DNA from: Bacilli bacterium
GTDB taxonomy: Bacteria; Bacillota_I; Bacilli_A; ML615J-28; CAG-698
Assembly (NCBI GenBank): GCA_017962745.1
Contig: JAGCUR010000018.1
Location: 191,088-226,820, forward strand
Length of the DNA: 35,733 nucleotides
Reading direction: 5' to 3'
In this document: positions 16,123 through 30,462 of the stretch, one piece after another
Layout: every line of letters starts with the position of its first letter
Numbering within the stretch: the first letter of the stretch is position 1
Position numbers and translations under genes: made by a program
The notes under the pieces: model-generated
Database searches by the model: none
What the model saw: only the letters and a program-made list of their open reading frames with translations
What the model was told of the DNA's origin: nothing

Positions 16123-16869
16123 ATGAAGCATTATGATTTTAAGCAATTCGATGGTTTAGAATATGACGGTAATATATTATTTATGTCATGTAAATTGACA
16201 AATGTGAGCATCGAGGAAAATGTAAAAGTATATAGTGCGATAGTTAACGATTCAACAATTAAAGAATATGCTTCAATAGGTGATGATACGCACATTGGTT
16301 TTTCAGAGATAGGTGAAAAAACTGAAATTGCACGAAGATGCATTATTACAAATTCGAAAATAGGAGATGGATGCTTAATAGGTAAAGAAACAGTAATAAA
16401 TAATTCGAATATAGGAAATTATTGTGCAATTTCATGGAATATCACTATTGGGGGAGGAAAACATCCTATGAACTCTTTGGCTATGGTGAATAGAAAATTC
16501 ATTTTTGATAATGATAATTCTATCGTTGGTACTGATCCAATATTGCATACTCCTATTATTGTTGGAAATGATGTCTGGATAGGAGCAGGAGCTAGCATTA
16601 TGACTGGTCTAACTATTGGAGATGGTGCTGTGATAGGAGCAAATGCCGTTGTTACAAAAGATGTTCCACCATATGCTGTAGTAGCAGGTGTTCCTGCCAA
16701 AATAATTAAATATCGTTTTTCCTCTAAAGTTATAGAAAAATTATTAGAAATTAAGTGGTGGACATATTCTAGAGATATATTAAAAAAATATCATGATTGT
16801 TTTATTGGCGATTTAACTGATGAAAAATTAAAAATTCTAGAGAATTTAGTAAAGGAAAAAGATGTTTAA
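16123..16869 (+). CDS. Hexapeptide-repeat (XAT-type) acetyltransferase
   Basis: A 248-residue left-handed beta-helix acyltransferase that probably acetylates an amino or hydroxyl group of a nucleotide sugar using acetyl-CoA. Hexad repeats run from about residue 25 to 190 (for example IKEYASIGDDTHIGFSEIG, CLIGKETVINNSNIGNYCAI). The xenobiotic-acetyltransferase-like loop contains ITIGGGKHPMNSL, with the histidine expected at the active site. The C-terminal coil carries VWIGAGASIMTGLTIGDGAVIGANAVV, then VPPYAVVAGVPAKIIKYRF, and a helical tail. It lies one base after the aminotransferase with no separate ribosome-binding site, so translation is coupled and the aminotransferase product is the likely substrate (QdtC/FdtC/VioB-like role). 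Its end overlaps the regulator gene by 8 bp. Confidence 0.85.
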   Translation: MKHYDFKQFDGLEYDGNILFMSCKLTNVSIEENVKVYSAIVNDSTIKEYASIGDDTHIGFSEIGEKTEIARRCIITNSKIGDGCLIGKETVINNSNIGNYCAISWNITIGGGKHPMNSLAMVNRKFIFDNDNSIVGTDPILHTPIIVGNDVWIGAGASIMTGLTIGDGAVIGANAVVTKDVPPYAVVAGVPAKIIKYRFSSKVIEKLLEIKWWTYSRDILKKYHDCFIGDLTDEKLKILENLVKEKDV

Positions 16870-17866
16870 CGAAAAAGTAGGTAGAGCTATATCTTTTTTA
16901 AGAAAACGTGCTGGTCTAACTCAAATGGATCTTGCAATTAGACTCGGTGTTACAGATAAAGCTGTATCCAAATGGGAAAGAGGATTAGGTGTTCCTGATA
17001 TATCAATTATTAGTAGACTATCTGTTATTTTAGATACTGATACTGATAGTTTGCTTGCCGGAGATGTAATAAACCATTCTAATAAGTGGGTTGGCTTACT
17101 TATTTTGAATGGAAATGTTCCAGTTAGTGAAAAAATAATTGATAAACCTTTGATATATTTTATGATGAGTTATTTTCTTCTTGTCGGAATACGTATAATA
17201 AATGTTTGCTGTAATGATAAAGACAAAGAATATATTGAAAGCAATAGTGCATTATGGGATACTTTAGGAATTTGTATATCATTCAATAAATTGGTTGAAT
17301 TCGAAAATAATAACAATCATAATGCAATGATTGTTATTGGGAATATATTCGTATATGGAGTTGATTTAACCAAATTTTTGAAGAAAGGAATGGCATATGA
17401 TGATAGGCCTATTGTATTATCTCTTCCTAAAAGAATAGACAGCGGAAAAGTAGTTCATTTTAATGATAACATGAGAATAATTGATGTCGAAAACGACGAA
17501 GTTCTAAATACACAGTATGATTATTATGAACTTCCAATTTTCTTTGTTCCTCAAAGATATTTAAAAAGCGTTCTACAAAGTGTAGGTTTTATTTCGGGAA
17601 ATTCAAATGTAACTTTTTTTACTAGTTGTCTCGATAGAGGTTTTGTTGAATTATACGCAAATAATTATGAAGAATTGGAAGAATTAAAATCCTTTGTTAA
17701 CATTGTTCAGAAAGCATGTGGAATGCAAATATACTGTATTGAAGAAATTGCTTGGAGAAGAGGATTTATAGACATGAATACATTGAAAAAACTAGGAGTG
17801 AATCAGAACGATTCTATTTATGGTAGATATATTTTACGTCTTGTATCAGATAACAAAGAAAAGTAA
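16862..17866 (+). CDS. XRE-type regulator fused to a degenerate RmlA-like domain
   Basis: A 334-residue protein. Residues 5-65 form a clear XRE/Cro helix-turn-helix (RKRAGLTQMDLAIRLGVTDKAVSKWERG spans the two helices). Residues 75-334 align along their length with RmlA: WVGLLILNG with MKGIILAGG, IIDKPLIYF with IFDKPMIYY, YGVDLTKFLKKGM with YGPNMTQMLKDAM, CLDRG (256-260) with WLDTG, and an identical CIEEIAWRRGFID (292-304). The catalytic parts are lost: the GGKGTRL loop is absent and the metal-binding Asp of LGDN is Asn (N161 in VIGN). It therefore probably binds a dTDP-sugar, dTTP or RmlA itself and regulates transcription, most simply of its own rmlA operon. The ATG follows AAAGGA and overlaps the acetyltransferase gene. 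The regulatory role is inference. Confidence 0.85.
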   Translation: MFNEKVGRAISFLRKRAGLTQMDLAIRLGVTDKAVSKWERGLGVPDISIISRLSVILDTDTDSLLAGDVINHSNKWVGLLILNGNVPVSEKIIDKPLIYFMMSYFLLVGIRIINVCCNDKDKEYIESNSALWDTLGICISFNKLVEFENNNNHNAMIVIGNIFVYGVDLTKFLKKGMAYDDRPIVLSLPKRIDSGKVVHFNDNMRIIDVENDEVLNTQYDYYELPIFFVPQRYLKSVLQSVGFISGNSNVTFFTSCLDRGFVELYANNYEELEELKSFVNIVQKACGMQIYCIEEIAWRRGFIDMNTLKKLGVNQNDSIYGRYILRLVSDNKEK

Positions 17867-17908: not shown

Positions 17909-17924
17909 TGATATAATGATATTG
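17909..17924 (+). promoter_or_regulatory. Extended -10 promoter for the ATP-grasp/liv unit
   Basis: TGATATAAT (17909-17917) is a perfect extended -10 element. A good -35 is not evident, as is usual for extended -10 promoters. Transcription would start near 17924, only about 10 bases before the group II intron. If the intron is removed, the leader to the ATP-grasp start is only about 23 nt, a normal bacterial leader. Confidence 0.6.
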
Positions 17925-18432
17925 CATTTGAGGGTGCGCCAGTTCGGTTCATTCAACATAGTCGGTGGGATTCCGACCTAGAAAGAGTTAGCGCCTCATC
18001 TAGTACCGAGACCTTGAAGCCAAAATCGTGAGATTAGGTTTAAACGTAGGTTAGGGATACTATAAGCCTAAATGCGAAAGTGTGAAGCAATTCAGCCCCG
18101 TTATATATAAATAGTGGAAGCAGAGGTGGTCCTCAACACTGAATGCAATACCGGCTAAATCGTTAATGCAAGATATAGCGAGAGTTCCATCGGGGTCAAT
18201 AAGAGCTAGGCGTGTAGATTAATGATGTTAAATGGATACCTGGGAGAACTTATATTCTCTAGAAATAGTAAGTCATATTCAAGAGCTTGAACCTCAAGAT
18301 ATGGTTATGGAATATAAGTAGTCGGAGCCAACATAGTACCTATGAAAGTAGTAATGATACCGGAGGGAAGGAAGGCCACCAACAATCGTTTCTTTATATG
18401 TAAACATTTGGTACACTGGAGGTACTTAACAA

Positions 18433-19704
18433 ATGGAAAATGAACGTAAAGATATAAGAATATTAGCCAAGACCTATAAAAAGCTACAAACCTTAATGAA
18501 TTACATAAACAAAGAAACGCTAATTCAACAATTTAGAAAGGAGAGTAGTAATAAAGCCAGTGGTATAGATAGTGTAACTAAGGAAGAATATGGGCTAAAC
18601 CTTGAGGACAATATAGATGATTTACTTAAGAGAATGAAATCATTCTCATATAAGCCTCAACCAGTAAGAAGAACATATATTCCAAAAGCCAATGGCAAAT
18701 TGAGACCGCTTGGCATACCAGCATTTGAAGATAAGCTAGTTCAAGGATGTATGGCCTATGTGTTAAATGAAATATATGAAACAAAGTTTCTAAATTGTTC
18801 TTATGGCTTTAGAGAAAACAGAAACTGTCATATGGCCATCGAAGAAATAAACAGTCACATAATGAAGAATAAAGTTAACTATATTCTAGATTGTGACATC
18901 AAAGGTTTCTTTGATAATGTTGACCACAAATGGATGATGGAATTTCTAAAGCATGATATTGAAGATAAGAACTTCTTAAGATATGTAGCTAGATTTCTTA
19001 AGAGCGGAATTATCGAAGATTTGAAATATTACGAAAGTGATAAAGGAACACCGCAAGGTGGACTAATATCACCGGTTTTAGCGAATGTCTATTTGCATTA
19101 TGTATTAGATTTATGGTTTGAGTATATCAAAAAGAAATACAAAGGTGAAATGTATTTAATTAGATATGCCGACGATTTTGTGGTTCTATTTCAATACGAG
19201 AATGAGGCAAAAGATTTCTACAATAAACTAATAGAGAGATTAGCAAAATTCAATCTTGAAATAGCGACAGACAAAACAAGAATACTACCCTTTGGGAGAT
19301 TTAAAGGAAATAAAGAAAAGTTTGATTTTCTAGGTTTCGAGTTTCACAACGGTAAAACAATTAGAGGTACGTATCGTACTCACATAATAACGAGTAGGAA
19401 GAAATTAAAACTTAAAAGGGCGATTACTAAATCTTGGATAAAAGAGCATATACACGACCCACTAGCTGAGTTATATAAAAGTATCAATCTAAGGTTAATA
19501 GGTCATTATAATTATTATGGTATAAGCGGTAATTTTGAAAGTTTAATTAAGTTTTACAAATATGTTAAATACACACTATACAAGTGGCTGAGTCGAAGAG
19601 ACCAAAAAGGAAAGATGAATTATAATGATTTCCTGAGGATTTGGCAATACTATATAAGTGAGCCGAGTATTAAAGTTGATATATGGCATTGGCAAAAAGC
19701 GTAA
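18433..19704 (+). CDS. ltrA: Group II intron reverse transcriptase/maturase (LtrA family)
   Basis: This intron-encoded protein copies RNA into DNA and helps the intron fold and splice. Its 423 residues include RT motifs in order: SGIDSVTKEEY, YIPKANGKLRPLGIP (about 82-96), ILDCDIKGFFDNVDH (151-165, first catalytic Asp), KGTPQGGLISPVLANVYL (about 204-221), and the active-site YADD (245-248). The maturase X domain follows (INLRLIGHYNYYGI, LYKWLSRRDQKGK). After this only about 30 residues remain, so no HNH endonuclease domain is present, as in several En-minus intron lineages. GGAGG precedes the ATG at suitable spacing. No frameshift or missing catalytic residue is seen. Confidence 0.95.
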   Translation: MENERKDIRILAKTYKKLQTLMNYINKETLIQQFRKESSNKASGIDSVTKEEYGLNLEDNIDDLLKRMKSFSYKPQPVRRTYIPKANGKLRPLGIPAFEDKLVQGCMAYVLNEIYETKFLNCSYGFRENRNCHMAIEEINSHIMKNKVNYILDCDIKGFFDNVDHKWMMEFLKHDIEDKNFLRYVARFLKSGIIEDLKYYESDKGTPQGGLISPVLANVYLHYVLDLWFEYIKKKYKGEMYLIRYADDFVVLFQYENEAKDFYNKLIERLAKFNLEIATDKTRILPFGRFKGNKEKFDFLGFEFHNGKTIRGTYRTHIITSRKKLKLKRAITKSWIKEHIHDPLAELYKSINLRLIGHYNYYGISGNFESLIKFYKYVKYTLYKWLSRRDQKGKMNYNDFLRIWQYYISEPSIKVDIWHWQKA

Positions 19705-19718
19705 AGATTGTTGGTGAA

Positions 19719-19831
19719 GAGCCGTATGCGGAAAATCTGCACGTACGGTTCTGTGAGGGGCAAGTAGACAGTTACTCACTCACATTTATATAAGAAGAAA
19801 GAGAGGTAATGTCGGGCCTTGTCTACTCGAC
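19719..19831 (+). ncRNA. Domains V and VI of the group II intron
   Basis: Domain V is the hairpin GAGCCGTATGCG...CGTACGGTTC at 19719-19751, with the AGC catalytic triad at 19720-19722. Domain VI pairs GAG-GGCAAG (19755-19764) with CTTGTC-CTC (19818-19828), leaving A19825 unpaired as the likely branch point, 7 nt from the 3' end. Its long distal loop holds an ATG (19809) after AGAGAGG that is in frame with the downstream ATP-grasp gene. Confidence 0.82.
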
Positions 19832-19844
19832 TGAAAGTTGTTTT

Positions 19845-21104
19845 ATGGAGCAAAAAAAAATATTAATACCCGGCGGTAAGGCTTCTGATTGGGCTCTAGT
19901 TAATGCAGCCCATAGACTAGGTTTTTATGTTATTACTTCAGGAACCGATACAAAGGCTCCTGCTCATAGATATGCTGATGAGTACGTGTGCTTAGATTAC
20001 TCTAATAAAGAAGCTATGTTATCTTTGGCTAAAGAAAAAAGAATTGACTATATGTGTTCTTGTGCTAATGATTTTGGTATGATTTCGACCGCATATGTAT
20101 GTGAAAAACTAGGACTTCCTGGTCATGATTCTTATGAAACTACTTTAACAATACATAATAAAGATAGATTTAAACCTTTAGCAAAGAGATTAGGATTACA
20201 TACTCCTATATCAGAAATCTTTGATAATCGTGAAGAAGCTATTGAGTTTGCTAAAAAGCAAACCAAAGCTATTATTATTAAACCTGTTGATAATGTTGCA
20301 AGTATTGGTGTATCAAAACCAAAAACTAAAGAAGAAATTCCTGCTTGTATTGATTTAGCATTTTCTAAATCAAAGATTAAGAAAATCTTAATCGAACCAT
20401 TCTGTGAAGGATTCTTTACAACAGTTACGTCATTCTTGATTGATCAAAAGGTTGTTGCATTCTTTGCTGATTCTGCTTTCTTCTATAAAGAAGGAGAAGT
20501 TATTGGTAATGAGTTCCCATCTAATCTAAGGACTACAGGTGGTTGTCAACCTGCGCCTTATATGGATGACTGGAGTCCTTATATTATTGAAGACTTTAAT
20601 AAGATAGCAAGAGAATTACATTTATCTAATGGTAAATTCCATGCTGAATTGTTAGTTAATCCAAAAGATCATAGTGCTGTAATATTCGATGTTCATAGAA
20701 GATATTCAGGTTTTGCTGATCCATGGCCTGAATGGGATGATACAGTATCACTATTATGGGAAGACTGGGTTTTAAGAGCAGAGTGTGGATTTGATGTTTC
20801 TGATTTCCCTGTTGGAATAAAACAATCTAAGTATTTCCACAATCGTAATGTATATGCTCCAAAAAATGGACATCTTAAGAAAGTTGAATTTGATACATAT
20901 TTAACTGCACACTTAGTTAGTCCAAGCAATGTTACATTGCCTGGTAATAAACTAGTGCTTGAAGATATCGATGTTAATGATCATCTCCATCAACCACTAA
21001 TTAGTGTCAAACTTCGTTTTAATACAGTGAAGGAGATGGAATATATGTCAAATCCAGAAGTAGATGAGTTTTATAAACATATCACTTTTGTATATGATAA
21101 ATAA
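19845..21104 (+). CDS. ATP-grasp ligase (carbamoyl-phosphate synthase-like fold), copy 1
   Basis: A 419-residue protein of the ATP-grasp superfamily, which activates a carboxylate with ATP and joins it to an amine, thiol or similar nucleophile. The N-terminal preATP-grasp domain (about 1-110: KKILIPGGKASDWALVNAAHRLGF, YVITSGTDTKAPAHRYADEYV) is followed by the ATP-binding lid (KAIIIKPVDNVASIGVSKP; ILIEPFCEGFFTTV). The metal-binding region is around HAELLVNPKDHSAVIFDVHRRYSG. It is paralogous to the protein at 26910. The start at 19845 (MEQKKILIP) is chosen because the in-frame ATG at 19809 lies inside the intron and would add 12 unrelated residues (MSGLVYSTESCF). It precedes the Liv transporter genes by 26 nt, suggesting a link to the imported substrate. 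The substrate is unknown. Confidence 0.85.
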   Translation: MEQKKILIPGGKASDWALVNAAHRLGFYVITSGTDTKAPAHRYADEYVCLDYSNKEAMLSLAKEKRIDYMCSCANDFGMISTAYVCEKLGLPGHDSYETTLTIHNKDRFKPLAKRLGLHTPISEIFDNREEAIEFAKKQTKAIIIKPVDNVASIGVSKPKTKEEIPACIDLAFSKSKIKKILIEPFCEGFFTTVTSFLIDQKVVAFFADSAFFYKEGEVIGNEFPSNLRTTGGCQPAPYMDDWSPYIIEDFNKIARELHLSNGKFHAELLVNPKDHSAVIFDVHRRYSGFADPWPEWDDTVSLLWEDWVLRAECGFDVSDFPVGIKQSKYFHNRNVYAPKNGHLKKVEFDTYLTAHLVSPSNVTLPGNKLVLEDIDVNDHLHQPLISVKLRFNTVKEMEYMSNPEVDEFYKHITFVYDK

Positions 21105-21130
21105 ACAAGTAATGGTAATAGGAGGTTATG

Positions 21131-22333
21131 ATGAGAATTATTAAAAAGTTATTTGTTTTATTATTATTAGCTTTTGTTAGCGTTCTAGTTGCGTGTGGAA
21201 GCAAAGGCGAAGAATCTTTAAAGATCGGTTATTTTGGTAACTTACCAGAAGCTGGTGACTGTTTGGTTCAAAGAAATACTATTAAGTTGTTTGTTGAAAA
21301 ATGGAACAAAGAAAAGACTTTTGGTGATGTAACTGTTGAGTATTATGAATATGATAATACAAACAATGGTGCTCAAGATACTGAAATGTCAATCAAGGCT
21401 GCTCAAAAACTTATCAATCAAGATCAAGTTGATATTATTATCTCTGCACAATTATCAAATATTATCCAAGCTACTGGACAATTAATTAATGATGCAGAAG
21501 TTATAGATATCGGTTTAGGTTTATCTGCAACATGGATGCAACAAGGTTGGGATTACGTTTATCGTACTGCTTTAAATAATGATTACCAAGTTCCTGGTAT
21601 GACTGCTAAAATGAAAGAATTAAATCAAAATGATGTTGCTTTATTATATCAAAACACTGATAACTGTTTAACATTCAGAGATACTTTCAAAGCTGAAGCT
21701 GCTAAGTCAGGTTTAAACATCGTTGCTGATGAAATGCTACCAGCTGAAGGTGGTACTGGTATCACTGGCCAAGTAACTAAAGCTATCAATTCTAACCCTG
21801 ATTGTATTTTTATCACTGCCATGGGTGGAAGCTTTGGTACAGTTGTTAAACAACTTCGTCAATCTGGTTACAAAGGTATGATTTACCTTGGACAACCATT
21901 AACTACTACAGAAGTTGATTCAATCGGTAGCGAAGAAGTTAACGGCGTTGCAATGTTCTCTCCATATATCGCCTATAACAGGGTAGAAGATTGTAAGAAT
22001 GAATTTTGCAAAAACGTATTACAAGCATACTTTGACAAGTATGGTACATGTCCTCAAACTGATATGATTTACAAGATTTGGGATGCAATGTTATTAATCG
22101 AAAATGCTGTTAAAACTGCTAAATCTACAGATGCAAAAGAAATTCAAGCTGTTATTAAAACTTTGAAGTTCCAAGGATGTGCTGGAACTATGGACTTCAC
22201 TCGTGGAAGCAATGAATGTTACTTTGGTGCTCAAGCATGGGTTTACACTGGCCAAGGCGTTGCCGGTGGTCCAACTCTATTAGAAGATTGGTTAAAAACT
22301 GACTTATCAAGCAAAGTAAAGATGACTAAATAA
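21131..22333 (+). CDS. livK: Branched-chain amino acid-type ABC transporter substrate-binding lipoprotein
   Basis: This lipoprotein captures a small substrate outside the cell for the importer encoded next. It has a lipoprotein signal peptide (MRIIKKLFVLLLLAFVSVLVAC), with the lipobox LVAC and Cys22 as the lipid anchor. The mature part is a Peripla_BP_6 fold: SLKIGYFGNLPEAGDC, SIKAAQKLINQDQVDIIISAQLS, DVALLYQNTDNCLTFRDTFKAE, and YKGMIYLGQPLTTTEV. ATG 21131 is preferred over ATG 21128 because AGGAGG at 21120-21125 is then 5 nt away, not 2. The mature protein contains at least eight cysteines, unusual for this family. The gene is followed by a terminator-like hairpin. The family binds Leu/Ile/Val, other amino acids, amides or urea; the ligand cannot be read from sequence. 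Confidence 0.9.
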   Translation: MRIIKKLFVLLLLAFVSVLVACGSKGEESLKIGYFGNLPEAGDCLVQRNTIKLFVEKWNKEKTFGDVTVEYYEYDNTNNGAQDTEMSIKAAQKLINQDQVDIIISAQLSNIIQATGQLINDAEVIDIGLGLSATWMQQGWDYVYRTALNNDYQVPGMTAKMKELNQNDVALLYQNTDNCLTFRDTFKAEAAKSGLNIVADEMLPAEGGTGITGQVTKAINSNPDCIFITAMGGSFGTVVKQLRQSGYKGMIYLGQPLTTTEVDSIGSEEVNGVAMFSPYIAYNRVEDCKNEFCKNVLQAYFDKYGTCPQTDMIYKIWDAMLLIENAVKTAKSTDAKEIQAVIKTLKFQGCAGTMDFTRGSNECYFGAQAWVYTGQGVAGGPTLLEDWLKTDLSSKVKMTK

Positions 22334-22370
22334 TTTTAGTTCATTTAATTGTTGGTGGCATAAAATTATT

Positions 22371-22406
22371 AGGGATAAATAGCTTTCTGTTTATCCCTTA
22401 ATTTTT
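22371..22406 (+). terminator. Intrinsic terminator/attenuator between livK and livH
   Basis: AGGGATAAA (22371-22379) and TTTATCCCT (22390-22398) form a 9-bp stem with a 10-nt loop, followed by TAATTTTT. It lies just before the livH ribosome-binding site. Partial termination here would give more binding protein than membrane components, a common arrangement for ABC importers. Confidence 0.75.
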
Positions 22407-22418
22407 GTGGGAGGTCGT

Positions 22419-23312
22419 ATGGATTTTTTAAAATTAGTTTTACAACTTTTAATTCCCGGACTATGTTTAGGTTGTGTATATGGACTAAATGGTATTGGTT
22501 CAGCACTTTTATATAAAGGATCACATACTATTAATAACGCACAAGGCGCAATTGTTGGTCTCGGAGCTTTAATTGGATATTCTATCCAACAAGGCCTAAA
22601 GATTGGATTAATAGCATCAACTGCAATAGTTGTAGTTATCACTTTCTTTATTGGTGTCTTTCTTCAAGTTTTTATTATTAGTAGAGTCGAAAGAAGATCA
22701 TCAATGTATGTTGTTATTGCAACCCTTGCTCTGAGTTTAATAATTAGTAGTATAAGTATGTTAACATTTGGTTCTTGGACTTTTGAATCTGCAACAATTA
22801 TTATTCATGGTAGTAAATACTTACATATTAATTTCGTTAATGTTGATATTTTATGGTCTAACATTATCGCCATCATCATTTCATTTATTGCCATGATATC
22901 AATTCACTTGTTCTTAAACAGGACAAGTTTTGGTATGGCAATGAGATCTGCAGCGATGGATTCATTTGCGGCTGAGTCTTGTGGTGTAAGTGTAGTAAAG
23001 ACAAGAGCTGTTACATGGGGAATCATGGCTGCCCTTGGTGCCTTAGGTGGTTGTTTGATGGGACCTTTATTTGGTATTAGTGCTGGAATTGGAATCGCAA
23101 TGGGTAATAAAGGTAATACTGGTGCTGTATTAGGTGGTTATGGTAACATGTATGGAGCTATCATCGGCGGTCTAATCATCGGCATGGTTGAGACCATATT
23201 TGGTTATATCTATAGTCCTTACCAAAGTGCATTTACATATGCATTATTCCTTGTATTCTTATTATTGCTTCCTAAGGGAATTATGAATGAGAAAGCAATT
23301 GAGGAGGGATAA
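22419..23312 (+). CDS. livH: Liv-type ABC transporter permease LivH
   Basis: This is one of the two membrane subunits of the importer. Its 297 residues carry about eight hydrophobic segments. Family motifs include CLGCVYGLNGIGSALLYKG near the start, NNAQGAIVGLGALIGY, and the coupling region around SFGMAMRSAAMDSFAAESCGVSVVKT, where the EAA-like loop contacts the ATPases. The C-terminal part has NMYGAIIGGLIIGMVETIF. ATG 22419 is chosen because GGGAGG ends 4 nt upstream; an in-frame GTG at 22407 would overlap that site. The terminator-like hairpin upstream probably lowers its expression relative to livK. It ends 3 nt before livM. Confidence 0.92.
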   Translation: MDFLKLVLQLLIPGLCLGCVYGLNGIGSALLYKGSHTINNAQGAIVGLGALIGYSIQQGLKIGLIASTAIVVVITFFIGVFLQVFIISRVERRSSMYVVIATLALSLIISSISMLTFGSWTFESATIIIHGSKYLHINFVNVDILWSNIIAIIISFIAMISIHLFLNRTSFGMAMRSAAMDSFAAESCGVSVVKTRAVTWGIMAALGALGGCLMGPLFGISAGIGIAMGNKGNTGAVLGGYGNMYGAIIGGLIIGMVETIFGYIYSPYQSAFTYALFLVFLLLLPKGIMNEKAIEEG

Positions 23313-23315
23313 TAA

Positions 23316-24338
23316 ATGAAGAAGATTTTTAAAAACAAGAAAATTCGTAACATTATTATCATGGTTGTAACAATTGCTTTATTAATGGTTACACCAGTTA
23401 TCTTCACTTCTTTTAGAAGTGGTAATTATTACCTTAATGTAATTAACTATGTATTTGTATATGCTATAGCTGCAACAGGACTAAATATTATGACTGGATA
23501 TTCTGGTCAAATCAATCTAGGTGGTGCTGCATACTTCTCAGTTGGTGCTTATGGTACTGTTATATTATGCAATCTTGGTATTCCAACTATTTTTGCAGTA
23601 CTACTAGCAATGCTAATAGTTGCGTTCTTTGGTTTCTTAACAGCAGTTCCTGCTGCTAAACTAAAATATCACTTCCTAGCTTTAGCCACAATGGCTGTTG
23701 GTGAGATTGTAAATAATATCTTAATAGTATCTCCAGGTGGAATTACAAACGATACACATGGTATGTTTGTAAAAGCATTAGATCTATTTGGACTTAAACT
23801 ATCAAAAGACTCACAACTATATTATTTCTTATTAATATCGATGGTTTTGTGTTTGCTATTTACATTTGCATTCATCAAATCACATACTGGAAGAGCATGT
23901 ATTGCAGCAAGAGATAGTGTTGACGCTGCTGGTGCTTTCGGTGTTGATGTTAAGAAATATAAGATTATTGCGACTGTAGTATCTTGTATCATGATTGGAT
24001 TTGCTGGTTTTTTATTCGCATATCTTAATAGATATATCTCACCAGACACATTCGCTGCTGGTAAATCTACAATGTTTATGTCAATGACAATGCTTGGTGG
24101 ATCAGGTACTTTATTTGGTCCATTACTTGGTACTATCTTAATTACTATCATTATGGAAGTATTAAGAGGTCTACCTGGTGCTGGTTTATATTTACAATTA
24201 TCTTATGGACTTGTACTACTTGCAGTTATGATGTTTATGCCATTTGGTGTATCTGGATTAATCTCAAATATTAAGACAAAGAGAATAATTAAGAAAAAAC
24301 GAATGGAAGAAATGGAGAAAAACAATGTTGGAAGTTAG
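23316..24338 (+). CDS. livM: Liv-type ABC transporter permease LivM
   Basis: The second membrane subunit, 340 residues, with about nine to ten hydrophobic segments. Characteristic LivM stretches are GLNIMTGYSGQINLGGAAYFSVGAY (split: MTGYSGQINLGGAAYFSVGA), PAAKLKYHFLALATMAVGEI, and FIKSHTGRACIAARDSVDAAGAFGV (split: TGRACIAARDSVDAAGAFGV), the coupling loop that engages LivG/LivF. The C-terminus ends in a basic, charged tail (KRIIKKKRMEEMEKN) in the cytoplasm. GGAGGG lies at suitable distance before the ATG, and the 3' end overlaps livG by 14 bp, so translation is coupled. Confidence 0.92.
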   Translation: MKKIFKNKKIRNIIIMVVTIALLMVTPVIFTSFRSGNYYLNVINYVFVYAIAATGLNIMTGYSGQINLGGAAYFSVGAYGTVILCNLGIPTIFAVLLAMLIVAFFGFLTAVPAAKLKYHFLALATMAVGEIVNNILIVSPGGITNDTHGMFVKALDLFGLKLSKDSQLYYFLLISMVLCLLFTFAFIKSHTGRACIAARDSVDAAGAFGVDVKKYKIIATVVSCIMIGFAGFLFAYLNRYISPDTFAAGKSTMFMSMTMLGGSGTLFGPLLGTILITIIMEVLRGLPGAGLYLQLSYGLVLLAVMMFMPFGVSGLISNIKTKRIIKKKRMEEMEKNNVGS

Positions 24339-25080
24339 TCATGCATTTTTAAACTTTAATGGATTGCAAGCTATAAATGATGTGTCTATTAAGGTAAATG
24401 ATGGAACGATTACTGCTATGATTGGTCCTAATGGTGCTGGTAAAACAACACTTTTTAATATAATAGCGGGAGTTTATAAACCAGATAGTGGTGTGGTAAC
24501 GTTAGATGGCGTTGATATAACTGGAAAAAAACCATTTGAAATATGCAATTATGGTATTACTAGAACCTATCAAGTAATCAAACTATTTACTGGAATGTCT
24601 GCTTTAGACAACGTATTGGTGGGCATGCACATAAATTATAAATTGAATTTTTTCCAAGATGTTTTTCATACAAAAAAGATGCGTCAATTGGAAAAAGAGA
24701 CAAAAGAAAGAGCAATGGAACTATTAAGATTAGTTGGTTTAGAGGATTATGCAGGCGTTACAGCTAGTAGTTTATCATACGGCCAACAAAGATTATTGGA
24801 AATTGCTAGAGCTCTTGGCTCTAATCCTAAACTATTATTACTTGATGAACCAGCAGCAGGAATGAACCTTAAAGAGAAAAACGATTTATGTGATCGTTTA
24901 CGTATTATAAAGAATATGGGAATTACAATACTAATTGTAGAACATGATATGAGTTTAGTTATGAATGTTGCAGAAGAAATCTTTGTAATAAATTCAGGAA
25001 AAAATCTTGCTTATGGAACTCCAGATGAGATAGCCAATAATAAAGATGTCATCGAAGCATATTTAGGAAGTGGTGATTAA
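24325..25080 (+). CDS. livG: Liv-type ABC transporter ATPase LivG
   Basis: One of the two cytoplasmic ATPases that drive the importer, 251 residues. It has Walker A GPNGAGKTT (34-42), the Q-loop region around TRTYQVIKLF, the ABC signature in the variant LSYGQQRLLEIARAL (usual for LivG), Walker B LLLLDEPAAGMN, and the H-loop histidine in LIVEHDMSLVM. The stretch between the Q-loop and the signature (FFQDVFHTKKMRQLEKETKERAM) is the helical insertion typical of LivG. It overlaps livM by 14 bp and is followed by livF after 2 nt. Confidence 0.95.
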   Translation: MLEVSHAFLNFNGLQAINDVSIKVNDGTITAMIGPNGAGKTTLFNIIAGVYKPDSGVVTLDGVDITGKKPFEICNYGITRTYQVIKLFTGMSALDNVLVGMHINYKLNFFQDVFHTKKMRQLEKETKERAMELLRLVGLEDYAGVTASSLSYGQQRLLEIARALGSNPKLLLLDEPAAGMNLKEKNDLCDRLRIIKNMGITILIVEHDMSLVMNVAEEIFVINSGKNLAYGTPDEIANNKDVIEAYLGSGD

Positions 25081-25082
25081 TA

Positions 25083-25820
25083 ATGGAACACTATTTAGAA
25101 GTTAAGAATTTACATTATTATTATGGTCAAATACATGCTGTTAAAGGAATTGATTTATATCTTGACGAAGGTGAAATAGTAACTTTAATTGGATCAAATG
25201 GTGCTGGAAAATCAACAACTTTAAATACAATTGCTGGACTGACAAGATCGGTTGGAGTAAAAGGGGAAATTCTGTTTAATAATAAAAATATTGCAAAAAA
25301 AAGTGGAAATAAAATTTGCAAATTAGGAATTATGGCAGTAGTTGAAGGACGACATATATTCTCGCAATTATCTGTTGAGGAAAATTTATATATGGGTGCA
25401 TATTCTAGGAAAGATAAAAGAAATGTAAAAAAGGATATAGATGAAGTATACGAATTGTTTCCTAGACTACTAGAAAGACGTAATCAAATGGGTGGAACAT
25501 TATCTGGAGGCGAGCAACAAATGCTTGCAATCGCAAGAGCACTTGTTAATAAACCAAAAATTATACTACTTGATGAGCCTTCATTAGGACTTGCTCCGAT
25601 AATTGTAGAACATATTTTTGAGATTATTAAAGAAATTAACACAAAGATGGGAACAACGATATTATTGGTTGAGCAAAACTCAAAAATAGCATTAAAAGTA
25701 TCCTCTAGAGGTTATGTAATTCAAAATGGTGAAATCGTAATATCTGGTACAAGTGAAGAATTATTAAACAATGACAAAGGTCGTCATGCTTATTTAGGAA
25801 TAGCAAATAAGGAAGAGTAA
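25083..25820 (+). CDS. livF: Liv-type ABC transporter ATPase LivF
   Basis: The partner ATPase of LivG, 245 residues. It shows YYYGQIHAVKGIDL typical of LivF, Walker A GSNGAGKST (37-45), VVEGRHIFSQLSVEENL (the LivF Q-loop-to-helical region), the signature LSGGEQQMLAIARAL, Walker B IILLDEPSLGLAP, and ILLVEQNSKIAL with the conserved EQN following the switch region where an H-loop His is usually replaced by Gln in LivF. Its stop codon lies inside a terminator hairpin, which marks the end of the transporter block. Confidence 0.95.
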   Translation: MEHYLEVKNLHYYYGQIHAVKGIDLYLDEGEIVTLIGSNGAGKSTTLNTIAGLTRSVGVKGEILFNNKNIAKKSGNKICKLGIMAVVEGRHIFSQLSVEENLYMGAYSRKDKRNVKKDIDEVYELFPRLLERRNQMGGTLSGGEQQMLAIARALVNKPKIILLDEPSLGLAPIIVEHIFEIIKEINTKMGTTILLVEQNSKIALKVSSRGYVIQNGEIVISGTSEELLNNDKGRHAYLGIANKEE

Positions 25821-25836
25821 ACCTTATTTGCTTTTT
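25803..25836 (+). terminator. Intrinsic terminator overlapping the end of livF
   Basis: GCAAATAAGG (25803-25812) and its exact complement CCTTATTTGC (25822-25831) form a 10-bp stem, followed by TTTTT. The livF stop is in the loop. Downstream genes follow closely, with a good Shine-Dalgarno for the next ATG at 25856, so read-through or a weak internal promoter is needed to express them. Confidence 0.8.
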
Positions 25837-25855
25837 ATAAAAAAGGAGAAACGAT

Positions 25856-26908
25856 ATGAAAATTATAAAAGAGAAAGAATTATATTCTTTTTGCTATGAA
25901 TGCTTATTAAAGTACAATATGTCAGAAGAAGATTCTAAAACAGTTTCAATGTGTTTAGTTAAAACTGATAAATGGGGAATTAATACTCATGGCACTAAAA
26001 ACTTATATGGCTATATAAATAAGAATATAGCAGGTGGCGTTTCATTTAAAGATCGCCCTGTAATTGAAAAAGAATATACATCAATGGCTCTAATTGATGC
26101 AAATAATACCTTAGGATATATACCAGCTACGATGGCTATGAACATTGCTTGCGATAAAGCTGAAAAAAGTGGAATAGCAATAGCTGTCGTTAAAAATAGT
26201 TGCCATTATGGAGCTGGAGCATTATATGCAAATATTGCATCTGATAGAGGAATGATTGGTATAGCAATAAGTAACGTTGATAAAAAAATGACAATACCTG
26301 GAGCAAGAGGAATGGTGATTGGTCATAATCCGTTTTCATTATCTGCTCCTGCAAATATATTGCCTTCTATTTTTTTAGATGCATCTTCTAGTAATGTTTC
26401 ATCTTTGAAAGTATTAACTGCGAAAGCAAAAGGGACTGAAATCCCTAATAATTGGATTTGTGATAAAGATGGTATGCCAACAAATGATCCATCTAAATAT
26501 CCTGATGAGGGAGCGTTGTTACCAATGGGAAACCATAAAGGTTATGGTATAGCATTATTTATAGATATTTTAACTGGTGTCATAGCATCTAGTTTAAATA
26601 GTATTTCTAATGATATTCCATCTTGGTGTTTTGATATTGAAGTACCCAATAAAGTGTCACACACTTTCATTGCAATAAATCCTAACTTATTATGTGAAAA
26701 CTTTAAAGAAAGAATAGACGAATTGATTGAGAGCATTCATAGTTTTCCAAAAGCAAGCAACGTAGAAAAGATTTATGTGCCTGGAGAAATGGAATGGAAC
26801 AAATATATGGCAACTGAAAATGGCAAAACTATTAATTTGCCAGATGATGTATTTGATGAGTTGGAGAAATTGAGTCGACTTGCTGGCGTTGACTTAAAGG
26901 TGTTATAA
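25856..26908 (+). CDS. Ldh2/MDH2-family NAD(P)-dependent 2-hydroxyacid oxidoreductase
   Basis: A 350-residue enzyme of the malate/L-sulfolactate/L-lactate dehydrogenase type (Ldh2 fold, unrelated to classical LDH), which interconverts 2-oxo and L-2-hydroxy acids. Family motifs are GINTHGTKNLYGY (about 42-54, with the catalytic-site His), KNSCHYGAGALYANIAS (about 112-128, a further conserved active-site His), and GNHKGYGIALFIDILTGV (about 225-242). Length is normal for the family. GGAG precedes the ATG at good spacing. It is one base short of abutting the second ATP-grasp gene and two genes before a pyruvate-type aldolase, so it could reduce a 2-oxo acid made by that aldolase. Its exact substrate is unknown, and some family members act on ureidoglycolate or diketogulonate. 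Confidence 0.88.
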   Translation: MKIIKEKELYSFCYECLLKYNMSEEDSKTVSMCLVKTDKWGINTHGTKNLYGYINKNIAGGVSFKDRPVIEKEYTSMALIDANNTLGYIPATMAMNIACDKAEKSGIAIAVVKNSCHYGAGALYANIASDRGMIGIAISNVDKKMTIPGARGMVIGHNPFSLSAPANILPSIFLDASSSNVSSLKVLTAKAKGTEIPNNWICDKDGMPTNDPSKYPDEGALLPMGNHKGYGIALFIDILTGVIASSLNSISNDIPSWCFDIEVPNKVSHTFIAINPNLLCENFKERIDELIESIHSFPKASNVEKIYVPGEMEWNKYMATENGKTINLPDDVFDELEKLSRLAGVDLKVL

Positions 26909-26909
26909 A

Positions 26910-28100
26910 ATGAAAAAAGTATTATTTGTTAATGGTTCTTATAATGAGATTCCATTAATTGAAGCTGCGCACAAACTAGGATATTATGTCATCACCTCAG
27001 GAAATGATGAAAAAGGTGAGGGCCATAAGTATAGTGATGAATATGTGCCATGTGATTACTCTGATAAAGAATCAATATATAAATTAGCAAAAAAACTGCA
27101 CGTAGACGGAATATGTTCATGTGGAAATGACTTTGGTGCATTATCAGCCGCATATGCTTCAGAGAAACTCAATTTAAATGGTCACGATTCTTATCATAAT
27201 TGTAGATATTTTCATGAGAAGGATAAGTTTAAAGAGTTATGTGATACACTATGCATATCTACTCCAAGGAGCTATGTATTTACCGACTTTAGTTTCGGTG
27301 TTGTATTCTTAGAAAAAGCAATTTTTCCTCTTATAATTAAGCCGAATGATTTAGGCGGTGGAAAAGGAATATCTATTGTTAGTGATATTGAAAGCGGACT
27401 AATCGCTCTTGAAAAAGCATTTCAAGTTTCAAAAAGCAAAGTCGTTCTAATTGAAGAATATATAGATGGTCCTCAATTTGGATATACTTGTTTTATAAAA
27501 GATAAATCAATTGCTTTTGATTACTTATCTCAAGATTACTCATATCTAAATCCATTTATGGTATGGAGTGCAGTTGCAAATTTTCCAGATGAGTATTGCG
27601 AATTAAGAAGTATAATAAGACATGATGTGAAACTGCTGTCTCAATACTTGAATGTTTATGATGGATTCCTTACTATTCAATTAAAGGTGAAAGACAATAA
27701 GCCATATTACATTGAAACAATGAGAAGATGCTTGGGAAATATGCATTATATTTGTATTTCAAATGACTTCCATTTTGATGCATATGAATTATTTTTAGCA
27801 AATGAGTTGGGTTTAAACACAGATGATTATTTAGCAAAAGTAAAAGAGCAACAACAAGCAAGTGCTTTTATGGGTCTATATGCAAATTGCAATGGTAAGT
27901 ACTTGGGATATGAGGTCGATGATAGGTATAAAAAACTATTGTTTTATAAATATGAAGTTGAAAAAAGAGGGTTTATAATAACTAATTACTTGTCTGAAAA
28001 AATAGGTATGATTTATTTATCATTTAACTCAAAAGAAGAACGTGATTCATTCATTTGTGATATGAAAAGTATAGTCTCTGTTGAAGTGGAGGAACAATGA
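26910..28100 (+). CDS. ATP-grasp ligase (carbamoyl-phosphate synthase-like fold), copy 2
   Basis: A 396-residue paralogue of the protein at 19845. Both start with KK(V/I)L(F/I) and share YVITSG-D, YSDEYV-CDYS or near equivalents, CSC-NDFG, and GHDSY. The ATP-binding glycine-rich loop is more canonical here (FPLIIKPNDLGGGKGISIV), followed by VVLIEEYIDGPQFGY and a metal-binding region around FLTIQLKVKDNKPYYIETMRR, with conserved Glu. The C-terminal 100 residues differ from copy 1, so the two probably ligate different partners. The gene follows the oxidoreductase by one base and overlaps the aldolase ATG by four bases (ATGA), suggesting use of the hydroxy-acid product. Function beyond ATP-dependent ligation is not predictable. 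Confidence 0.85.
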   Translation: MKKVLFVNGSYNEIPLIEAAHKLGYYVITSGNDEKGEGHKYSDEYVPCDYSDKESIYKLAKKLHVDGICSCGNDFGALSAAYASEKLNLNGHDSYHNCRYFHEKDKFKELCDTLCISTPRSYVFTDFSFGVVFLEKAIFPLIIKPNDLGGGKGISIVSDIESGLIALEKAFQVSKSKVVLIEEYIDGPQFGYTCFIKDKSIAFDYLSQDYSYLNPFMVWSAVANFPDEYCELRSIIRHDVKLLSQYLNVYDGFLTIQLKVKDNKPYYIETMRRCLGNMHYICISNDFHFDAYELFLANELGLNTDDYLAKVKEQQQASAFMGLYANCNGKYLGYEVDDRYKKLLFYKYEVEKRGFIITNYLSEKIGMIYLSFNSKEERDSFICDMKSIVSVEVEEQ

Positions 28101-29707
28101 AAAGTATTAAATTATTAGATTGCACTGTTAGAGATGGTGGATATTTAAATGATTGGAAATTTGGAGCAAGTGTCTTAACTGAAATAGTCCAAAGATTAAT
28201 AAATGCCAATATTGATTATATTGAATTGGGGTTTATTGATGAGAGAAGATACTATGATGAAAATAGAAGTATTTTTCCAAACACTTCATCAATTAGTAGA
28301 ACATATCAATTTATTAAAAAATCACCTCATACAAAACTTGTTGCAATGATTGACTATGGAACATGCGATATAAAAAATATAGACAAAAAAGAAAATACAA
28401 TTCTAGATGGAATTAGAATAATTTTTAAAAAGGAAAAAATGGTTGAAGCAATCAATTATTGTAAAAAAGTAAAAGAGTTAGGATATGAAGTTTTTACGCA
28501 GTTAGTTTCTTCAACAACTTATAACAAAGACGATTTGAATCAATTAATCAGACTTGAAAACGAACTGAACCCATATTGTGTGAGTATTGTAGATACATAT
28601 GGGCTAATGGATTTTAACGAAATATCAAATCTTTTAAATGAATTAAATAAAGGTCTTAATCATAATATTGCAATTGGGTTCCATGCACATAATAATCTAT
28701 TGTTGGCGTTTTCTAATTCATGTGAGTTTTTAAGTCAAAATATTGAAAGAAATCTAATTGCCGATGGAACCATATTAGGAATGGGAAAGGGAGCTGGTAA
28801 TTCTCCTATTGAATTACTTGCAAATTATTGCAATAATTACTTTGGGACTGACTATAATATTGATGAACTTCTTGAAGGCGGAGAAGCAAATATTATGAAA
28901 TTGTTTGGAAGAAACAATTGGGGATACTCTTTAAAATTTTTGCTAGCAAGTATAAATCGTGTTCATCCAAATTATGTTAGCGACTATATATCTAAGAATG
29001 TATTATCTATAACTAATTTGAATCATTTGCTTAAAGAAATCGATGAAAGATATAAATTACTATATAGTAAAGATGAAAGCGAGAGAAAATATAGAAAGTA
29101 TTGTGAAAAGTTTTTTAGTGATAGTGACGAAAAGGTTTTGTTATCGAAAGAAATAACTGGAAGAAAAGTTTTGCTAATTGGTCCAGGTGGATCAATAAAT
29201 GGAGCAAAAGAGCGTATAGATTTATTTGTTCAAACCGAAAACCCAATTGTTATATCTATAAATTTCTTTCCAACAAGTTTTGAGACGAACTATTTATTCA
29301 TAACTAATTCTAGAAGATTGGGCTACCTATCTAATGAATTTGAAAGAATATATGATAATGATGTAAAAGTAATTGGTACTACTAATTTAACTCCAATTTT
29401 TAGAAAATTTGATTATGTTTTTGATTATTCTAACTTGATTGATTCATCATCATTTGCTCGCGATAGTGCAATAATTATGATTTTAAAACTTTTGCAACAA
29501 TGTAATTGTAAAAATGTTTATTTGGCTGGTTTCGATGGGTATGCATCTTCGTTTGAAGATGATTTCGTGAATTTAAGCAATGCATACGGCTGGAAAGAGC
29601 CATATACTGGCTTTCTTAATTCATATATTAGAAATCAAATTAAAGTGTTTAGAACTGAAATGAATGTCTCTTTTATAACAGCATCGTTGTTCGAGGAAGA
29701 AGATTAA
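28097..29707 (+). CDS. Pyruvate-type aldolase (DmpG/HMGL-like) fused to a glycosyltransferase-like C-terminal domain
   Basis: A 536-residue two-domain protein. Residues 1-290 form a DRE-TIM barrel: the metal and catalytic motif DCTVRDGGY (8-16), FTQLVSSTTYN, the metal-binding HAH pair in GFHAHNN (H196, H198), and GMGKGAGNSPIELL (228-241). Such aldolases condense or cleave 4-hydroxy-2-oxo acids or acyl-CoA with 2-oxo acids. After a helical linker (about 305-350), residues 355-536 begin with GRKVLLIGPGGSING and contain VISINFF, VIGTTNLT and VYLAGFDGY. This pattern recalls the DUF115/GT42-like Rossmann families that bind nucleotide sugars. The fusion links small-molecule carbon-carbon chemistry with a sugar-handling domain in one chain. 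The N-terminal call is solid, the C-terminal one tentative. It overlaps the ATP-grasp gene upstream and lies 2 nt before a phosphatase gene. Confidence 0.8.
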   Translation: MKSIKLLDCTVRDGGYLNDWKFGASVLTEIVQRLINANIDYIELGFIDERRYYDENRSIFPNTSSISRTYQFIKKSPHTKLVAMIDYGTCDIKNIDKKENTILDGIRIIFKKEKMVEAINYCKKVKELGYEVFTQLVSSTTYNKDDLNQLIRLENELNPYCVSIVDTYGLMDFNEISNLLNELNKGLNHNIAIGFHAHNNLLLAFSNSCEFLSQNIERNLIADGTILGMGKGAGNSPIELLANYCNNYFGTDYNIDELLEGGEANIMKLFGRNNWGYSLKFLLASINRVHPNYVSDYISKNVLSITNLNHLLKEIDERYKLLYSKDESERKYRKYCEKFFSDSDEKVLLSKEITGRKVLLIGPGGSINGAKERIDLFVQTENPIVISINFFPTSFETNYLFITNSRRLGYLSNEFERIYDNDVKVIGTTNLTPIFRKFDYVFDYSNLIDSSSFARDSAIIMILKLLQQCNCKNVYLAGFDGYASSFEDDFVNLSNAYGWKEPYTGFLNSYIRNQIKVFRTEMNVSFITASLFEEED

Positions 29708-29709
29708 TT

Positions 29710-30462
29710 ATGAAGTTAAGTGATTATGATTTGATATTATTTGATTTAGATGGCACCATATATAATGGACCAGAATTAATTGATGGTGCGAAAGAGACTA
29801 TTGATTTTTTTAGAGCAAATAATAAATATATTGTGTTTGGTACAAATAATTCTTCAAAAACTAGGGTCCAAATAGCTGAAAAGTTAAATTCCCTGGGAAT
29901 TAAATGTGAATACGATGAAGTGGTTACATCTGCTTTTTTAGCTTACAATTTGGCAAAAAAACTAAAATTAAGCGATGTTTATGTAGTTGGCTCAGATTCA
30001 TTAATTAATAAGTTTTCTAATGGTGGTATTATGGTTAATCAAACCGAGTCTGCGTTGAATTTGGTTATTGGTTATGATATAATGATTACGTATGAAAAAC
30101 TAACAACCGCATTTAGAATTGCAATGAATGCTCATACAATTATTTCATGCAATGAAGAAAGAAATTATCCATCAAATAATAATGAACTTTTTCCAAGTTG
30201 TGGTGGCATAGTAAAGGCAATAGAGTGGTGCGCTAATAGAAAAAGCGATTATGTTGTTGGAAAGCCTAACTCATTTATGATTGATTATTTGATTGATAAA
30301 TATGGCATTAATAAAAAACGTATTCTAATTGTTGGCGATAGTACTGAGTTTGATGTTCAAATGGCTAAGGATTCTGGCACAGATTATATCTGTATCCATC
30401 AGGACAATTCAATGATCAACTATGTAAGAAAAATAAGTGATATTCCAAATCTATTTAAATAA
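29710..30462 (+). CDS. HAD class IIA (NagD-like) phosphatase
   Basis: A 250-residue haloacid-dehalogenase-family hydrolase. Motif I is LILFDLDGTIY, with nucleophile D12 and acid/base D14. Motif II is FGTNNSSKT, a typical NagD Asn/Ser motif. The class IIA cap lies between (about 75-190, with VIGYDIMITYEKLTTAF). Motif III/IV are VVGKPNSFM (Lys) and RILIVGDSTEFDVQMAKDSG. NagD-like enzymes dephosphorylate small phosphates such as glycerol phosphate, phosphoglycolate or sugar phosphates. GAGGAAGA lies before the ATG, and the gene begins 2 nt after the aldolase. In this context it may remove phosphate from an aldolase product or an alcohol-phosphate precursor, which is inference. Confidence 0.88.
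   Translation: MKLSDYDLILFDLDGTIYNGPELIDGAKETIDFFRANNKYIVFGTNNSSKTRVQIAEKLNSLGIKCEYDEVVTSAFLAYNLAKKLKLSDVYVVGSDSLINKFSNGGIMVNQTESALNLVIGYDIMITYEKLTTAFRIAMNAHTIISCNEERNYPSNNNELFPSCGGIVKAIEWCANRKSDYVVGKPNSFMIDYLIDKYGINKKRILIVGDSTEFDVQMAKDSGTDYICIHQDNSMINYVRKISDIPNLFK

Follow-up and report, generated by a model that had tools for sequence, protein, structure and literature searches.

The window, i.e. the whole stretch of 35,733 nucleotides analyzed here from the genome of a Bacilli bacterium, contains an unusual gene unit (19845-30462) situated between polysaccharide genes. The unit includes two ATP-grasp proteins (40% identical over their first 210 residues), a branched-chain-type ABC transporter, an Ldh_2 dehydrogenase, an HMGL-like aldolase and a HAD-like protein. 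The gene upstream of it (16862-17866) has a helix-turn-helix N-terminus fused to an RmlA-like region, the match to TIGR01207 (74.9 bits) being far under the cut-off of 360.65, and no obvious terminator was seen by eye after its end at 17866. Between this gene and the first ATP-grasp gene lies a group II intron, and the following features were assigned to the region:

17909-17917, plus strand: extended -10 box TGATATAAT, with a predicted transcription start at about 17923-17925 (from sequence; equivalent boxes precede related insertions)
17928-17933, plus strand: IBS1, TTGAGG, the 5' half of the host Shine-Dalgarno sequence and end of the 5' exon (pairs and covaries with EBS1)
17934-19831, plus strand: group II intron, 1898 nt (from Rfam and comparison with relatives)
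18131-18136, plus strand: EBS1, CCTCAA, anti-Shine-Dalgarno-like (complement of IBS1; the homologous loop covaries in L124, L168, L118 and L173)
18433-19704, plus strand: intron-encoded protein (IEP), 423 aa, reverse transcriptase (YADD) and maturase domain (from TIGR04416, PF00078 and sequence)
19717-19750, plus strand: domain V (from Rfam RF00029 and fold)
19754-19831, plus strand: enlarged domain VI (DVI); the branch A is bulged out at 19825, and CTCGAC forms the 3' end of the intron (from folds of six relatives and alignment A1)
19796-19811, plus strand: within DVI, Shine-Dalgarno-like AGAAAG and ATG 19809, which opens a 431-aa reading in the frame of the ATP-grasp gene (from the ORF list and fold)
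19832-19844, plus strand: 3' exon leader TGAAAGTTGTTTT, the 3' half of the Shine-Dalgarno sequence plus spacer (from sequence)
19845-21104, plus strand: host gene, an ATP-grasp protein, first in the ATP-grasp/liv-type ABC transporter unit (from profile matches)

By means of Rfam, domains of the intron were recognized at 17968-18207 (RF02005, group-II-D1D4-6, 108.7 bits) and at 19717-19785 (RF00029, Intron_gpII, covering DV/DVI, 55 bits), while no other Rfam family and no aptamer was seen near the intron in the scan of the window. The intron starts with GTGCG at 17934. Its 3' end was placed at 19831 since the terminal CTACTCGAC is kept in the relatives and the sequences part right after it, and since DVI folds with a bulged branch A (19825, in UCU-A-CUC), seven bases before this end, above a stem in which changes between copies compensate each other (GGGGCAAG/CUUGUCU, GGGGCGAAC/GUUCGUCU and GGGGCCGG/CCGGUCU) and the A is constant. 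In the enlarged DVI of the lineage (alignment A1; 19754-19831 in the window), a strand of pyrimidines pairs with a purine-rich, Shine-Dalgarno-like one, GAAAGNGAGGTRA. The IEP matches TIGR04416 at 370.6 bits (cut-off 300), identifying it as a group II reverse transcriptase/maturase that appears intact, and a Pfam search of the 423-aa protein found no endonuclease domain. A GUGYG start, domains I-VI, the bulged A, a YADD-bearing reverse transcriptase/maturase in domain IV and a 6-bp EBS1/IBS1 pairing are together what is expected of a mobile bacterial group II intron. It is present as a single copy in its genome and is absent from the congener G001.

The canonical 5' junction is fixed by covariation between IBS1 and EBS1 in the relatives, with the pairs TGGGTG/CACCTA (L124), ACGGTG/CACCGT (L168), GAAAG/CTTTC (L118) and ACAATG/CATTGT (L173), as well as GGAGGG/TCCTTC in L115, where the pairing includes wobbles. 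A shifted junction of the kind known from the Clostridium tetani intron C.te.I1 could be ruled out, as it is at the canonical position that IBS1 and EBS1 pair and change together. The boundaries 17934 and 19831 of the original prediction are thus borne out by GTGCG, the conserved 3' end, the bulged A and the IBS1/EBS1 covariation. So is the exon junction that it gave: joined, the exons read TATAATGATATTGCATTTGAGG+TGAAAGTTGTTTTATG (TTTGAGG+TGAAAG), which creates GAGGTGA 10 nt before the ATG at 19845, the GAGG being located 13 nt before it. The leader length of about 23 nt holds if transcription starts near 17924. That ATG 19845 is the native start is supported by the paralogue at 26910, which aligns with the N-terminus of the ATP-grasp protein from this codon.

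The intron, in other words, interrupts a Shine-Dalgarno sequence that splicing would rebuild, as originally proposed. The computed duplex between the window leader and the anti-Shine-Dalgarno reaches -11.5 kcal/mol when spliced vs. -4.4 when unspliced. Over the five sites for which both flanks are available, pairing with the 16S tail (taken as the usual Firmicute 3' end from general knowledge, which may differ from the host's own) amounts to -8.3 to -11.5 kcal/mol for spliced and -1.6 to -6.1 for unspliced leaders, with medians of -7.5 for host leaders and -1.8 for random host 20-mers as references. From these energies, splicing plausibly restores translation of the host gene. The further suggestion that expression may depend on splicing agrees with the weak 16S pairing of the unspliced RNA. 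This RNA is not devoid of initiation signals, however, having a weak GAAAG at 19833, retained in the 3' exon, and the in-frame ATG at 19809, so that the dependence need not be strict.

Within the window alone, the spacing between GAGG and promoter is not unusual (three matches with one mismatch vs. 4.7 expected), and the case therefore rests on the comparison between genomes. Relatives were sought with the intron 5'-end pattern GTGCGCYAGTTCGGTN10TAGT, which matched in 6 out of 55 genomes of one family and, in the class as a whole, in 10 out of 395 genomes (the match L137 being a chance one in coding sequence), the hosts being gut-type bacteria. Most related copies are situated at contig ends of metagenome-assembled genomes, and both flanks are found on one contig only for a few, namely the window, L115, L116 and L124. 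A Shine-Dalgarno-like tetramer (GAGG/GGTG/GGAG-type) forms the end of 25 out of the 28 non-redundant 5' flanks, and 22 of the 28 have a TATAAT-like -10 box (score 5.5 or more) 8-20 nt upstream, a perfect TATAAT in 16 of these. An extended TG (TGn-TA...T) precedes 20 of 24 -10-like boxes at related insertions. In 18 of the 22 flanks, box and intron are separated by 10-13 nt, which predicts a 5' exon of roughly 4-7 nt if a transcription start about 7 nt past the -10 box is assumed. The window fits this pattern less well, in that its distance is 16 nt, above that of most relatives, and its predicted 5' exon about 10 nt.

Such boxes are less frequent at ordinary host sites, where 106 out of 289 GAGG Shine-Dalgarno sites with an ORF have one (Fisher p = 2e-5 against 22/28 insertions, p = 5e-7 against 22/25 when only Shine-Dalgarno-type insertions are counted). 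The 10-13 nt spacing is enriched as well (p = 3e-5), being found at 18 of 22 insertions vs. 49 of 144 control sites in the hosts. No relatives were found directly after intrinsic terminators or at attC; the insertions follow a -10 box and a Shine-Dalgarno sequence.

On the other side of the intron, a start codon is found 2-13 nt downstream in all 10 recovered non-coding 3' flanks, opening ORFs of 128-419 aa. From their sequences, we take these genes to encode a CCA-adding enzyme (cca), IspE, a uracil-DNA glycosylase, an acetyltransferase and a YaiI/YqxD-like protein, among others. A clean empty site could not be had for the window gene itself, its ATP-grasp protein having no close orthologue in the one congener or in the family, and the L115 gene was used instead. 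The ATG downstream of the intron is common to its orthologues. The orthologue in G384 is intron-less and reads TATAATTTTATTGGGTGATACGTATG, with the same compact layout of promoter, Shine-Dalgarno sequence and start as the joined L115 exons, and a 90% orthologue in G414 has an uninterrupted leader with different upstream sequence.

Certain members, against the general pattern, are located outside Shine-Dalgarno sequences, namely L136 (just past an ATG), L167, the viral-contig copies L173 and L174, and in part L118. In G349 (L117 1-1302 and L118, on contigs C19 and C30), a relative interrupts the start of a gene for a membrane or secreted protein at the Shine-Dalgarno-like AAGAAAG/GA (the slash marking the insertion point), and DVI of this L117 intron carries a well-spaced Shine-Dalgarno sequence with an ATG in the reading frame of that gene, which would thereby acquire an alternative N-terminus. 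The unspliced RNA would yield a protein starting with MEKERKPSTRRIIIAG, the spliced one MNNQSSKKKGIIIAG. ORF-less members of about 690-730 nt also occur (L115 1044-1761, L170/L216 and L124), and were apparently mobilized in trans. Genome G318 has both an ORF-less and an IEP-bearing copy, which differ in Shine-Dalgarno register.

The lineage appears to have moved recently. A near-identical intron (99.6-100% over aligned segments; L051/L082) was found in the yak-rumen genome RGIG10250, which belongs to a different family, and where the contigs read TATAATAATTTTGAGG followed by the intron, and the intron followed by TGAAATATG, before a maltose O-acetyltransferase-like gene. This suggests recent horizontal transfer. 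The IEP tree places the window intron together with L116, L117, L119 and two introns from viral contigs (support 100/98), and the Bacillus introns, at about 49% identity, elsewhere. The two IMG/VR viral-contig introns (L173 and L174) have a different EBS1 and non-Shine-Dalgarno targets, even though their IEPs cluster with the Shine-Dalgarno members. None of the Bacillus relatives examined uses Shine-Dalgarno sites and, as these lie outside the clade of the window IEP, the habit appears to be a trait of this clade, from which L136, L167, L173, L174 and partly L118 are excepted.

Taking these data together, we consider it probable that an endonuclease-less, selfish intron lineage targets the Shine-Dalgarno sequences of short-leader promoters, and that its splicing keeps the host gene on. 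The intron would insert in the sense strand, in genes whose leaders are so short that the Shine-Dalgarno sequence which it enters lies only a few bases past the transcription start. The choice of target would rest on the EBS1 loop: in the members inserted in Shine-Dalgarno sequences, this loop has complementarity to parts of AGAAAGGAGGTGATC, and thus imitates, in several registers, the anti-Shine-Dalgarno at the end of 16S rRNA. The intron would then be transcribed from the host gene promoter and its maturase made from the unspliced RNA, while splicing out would rebuild the Shine-Dalgarno sequence, whereby even an essential host gene would stay expressed and the intron would be nearly silent. 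We infer here that the unspliced RNA is poorly translated, that splicing takes place in vivo and that the target is actively chosen by its context. As to the route of entry, we would guess that the intron reverse splices into the coding strand while an open promoter keeps it single-stranded; a free coding strand would fit the sense-strand insertions, and single-stranded DNA perhaps replaces an endonuclease or a replication fork.

The most serious alternative replaces targeting by selection: the intron would insert widely at short EBS1 matches, and only copies in transcribed, non-coding, splice-tolerant leader sites would persist. Endonuclease-less introns can indeed use short IBS1 matches, insertions within genes would usually be lost while even the essential cca and ispE tolerate one in the leader, and purging of harmful insertions could by itself enrich for Shine-Dalgarno sites. 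Against this, copies in one genome often agree over all of the available sequence: in G384, five different promoter/Shine-Dalgarno-like sites are occupied by five copies without a difference over 117 nt or more, and three in G308 are identical over 112-113 nt, again all at such sites. Identical copies at different sites indicate recent insertions, which argues against long selection as the sole source of the association. Moreover, an ORF starts no more than 15 nt past only 6-18% of the TTGAGG/TGAGG sites in host DNA, and just 1-6% have a -10 box too, and survival alone leaves the narrow distance of 10-13 nt unexplained. We therefore regard selection as a possible but rather doubtful explanation, and the identical young copies in particular favor active targeting over mere survival.

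It is improbable that the intron instead supplies a new start signal, so that the unspliced RNA is translated from the Shine-Dalgarno-like sequence and ATG in DVI (19796-19811) and splicing is dispensable. In the window, ATG 19809 has AGAAAG 7 nt upstream and would add 12 aa to the host protein in the 431-aa reading; the G349 intron described above has a better spaced equivalent, and C.te.I1 likewise carries start codons in D5/6 (PMC3919590). Among the seven copies with such an ATG, however, it is in frame with the downstream gene in only two, which rules out a conserved function of the in-frame codon, and in the window it is base-paired within the DVI fold; on these two grounds we take it to be probably accidental. 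The GAGG in DVI is, furthermore, only 2 nt from the ATG in the window, and the alignment of the paralogue at 26910 points to ATG 19845.

Still less probable is a dead remnant, with the operon expressed by read-through and weak initiation. The single copy in the genome and the apparent lack of a terminator after the upstream gene would agree with it, but the intact 423-aa reverse transcriptase with YADD, the conserved DV/DVI and the near-identical copy in a different family speak for recent activity. Least probable of all is the capsule on/off or heterogeneity switch of the original prediction, a domesticated intron whose splicing efficiency would regulate the ATP-grasp/liv unit and hence the surface polysaccharide: while the split Shine-Dalgarno sequence, the weak 16S pairing of the unspliced leader and the example of Clostridioides difficile, where an allosteric group I intron moves a ribosome-binding site by splicing (PMC3984707), lend it some plausibility, it finds no support, since the same lineage splits the Shine-Dalgarno sequences of unrelated genes in other families, including housekeeping genes, which suggests a general target habit rather than a dedicated regulator, and since the intron appears mobile, with an intact-looking reverse transcriptase, is absent from G001 and has no aptamer or other Rfam family nearby.

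If targeting of Shine-Dalgarno sequences holds true, the ribosome-binding site, among the commonest near-constant sequences of a genome, would offer hundreds of almost harmless landing sites, which would explain the insertions before essential genes. Splicing would also be directly coupled to translation of the host gene, and a natural in vivo reporter for group II splicing would be at hand. It raises the testable idea of transcription-initiation bubbles as targets for reverse splicing, and introns directed to Shine-Dalgarno sequences of choice could serve as a tool.

A review of bacterial group II introns names three target types, namely homing sites, terminators and attC (PMC4424553), to which insertion in Shine-Dalgarno sequences would add a fourth. 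A literature search that covered few of the subscription journals, so that an earlier mention is possible, found no precedent for group II introns targeting Shine-Dalgarno or anti-Shine-Dalgarno sequences, translation initiation or transcription bubbles. The stricter formulation of such a fourth class, where EBS1 copies the anti-Shine-Dalgarno and the intron enters ribosome-binding sites just past the transcription start by reverse splicing into their coding strand, perhaps via single-stranded DNA of the open promoter and with a 5' exon of a few nt, seems to us evenly balanced between true and false.

Among known systems, the Bacillus and Cytobacillus group II introns (L052-L081) belong to the same wider IEP clade (about 49-50% identity) and share the CTACTCGAC 3' end, but differ in having a short DVI and 5' exons (e.g. 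ending in ACTAACGGGGCAG) that do not represent Shine-Dalgarno sequences. The class B-like C.te.I1 of Clostridium tetani (PMC3919590) resembles the window intron in being of Firmicute type, in its GUGCG start, in its D5/D6 start codons and in that EBS1 is decisive at the 5' junction; it joins protein-coding exons and lacks an IEP, whereas the window intron joins two halves of a leader and rebuilds a Shine-Dalgarno sequence. In the Clostridioides difficile system of a c-di-GMP riboswitch and a group I intron (PMC3984707), splicing of the leader likewise decides on the ribosome-binding site before the start codon, although that intron is group I, ligand-controlled and domesticated, and the one described here is group II and mobile, with no aptamer seen. 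Lastly, class C (group IIC) introns have in common with the window lineage that they are endonuclease-less and mobile, with a recurrent genomic feature as target and a short exon pairing, but they sit after intrinsic terminators or at attC, while the window lineage sits in Shine-Dalgarno sequences just past a promoter.
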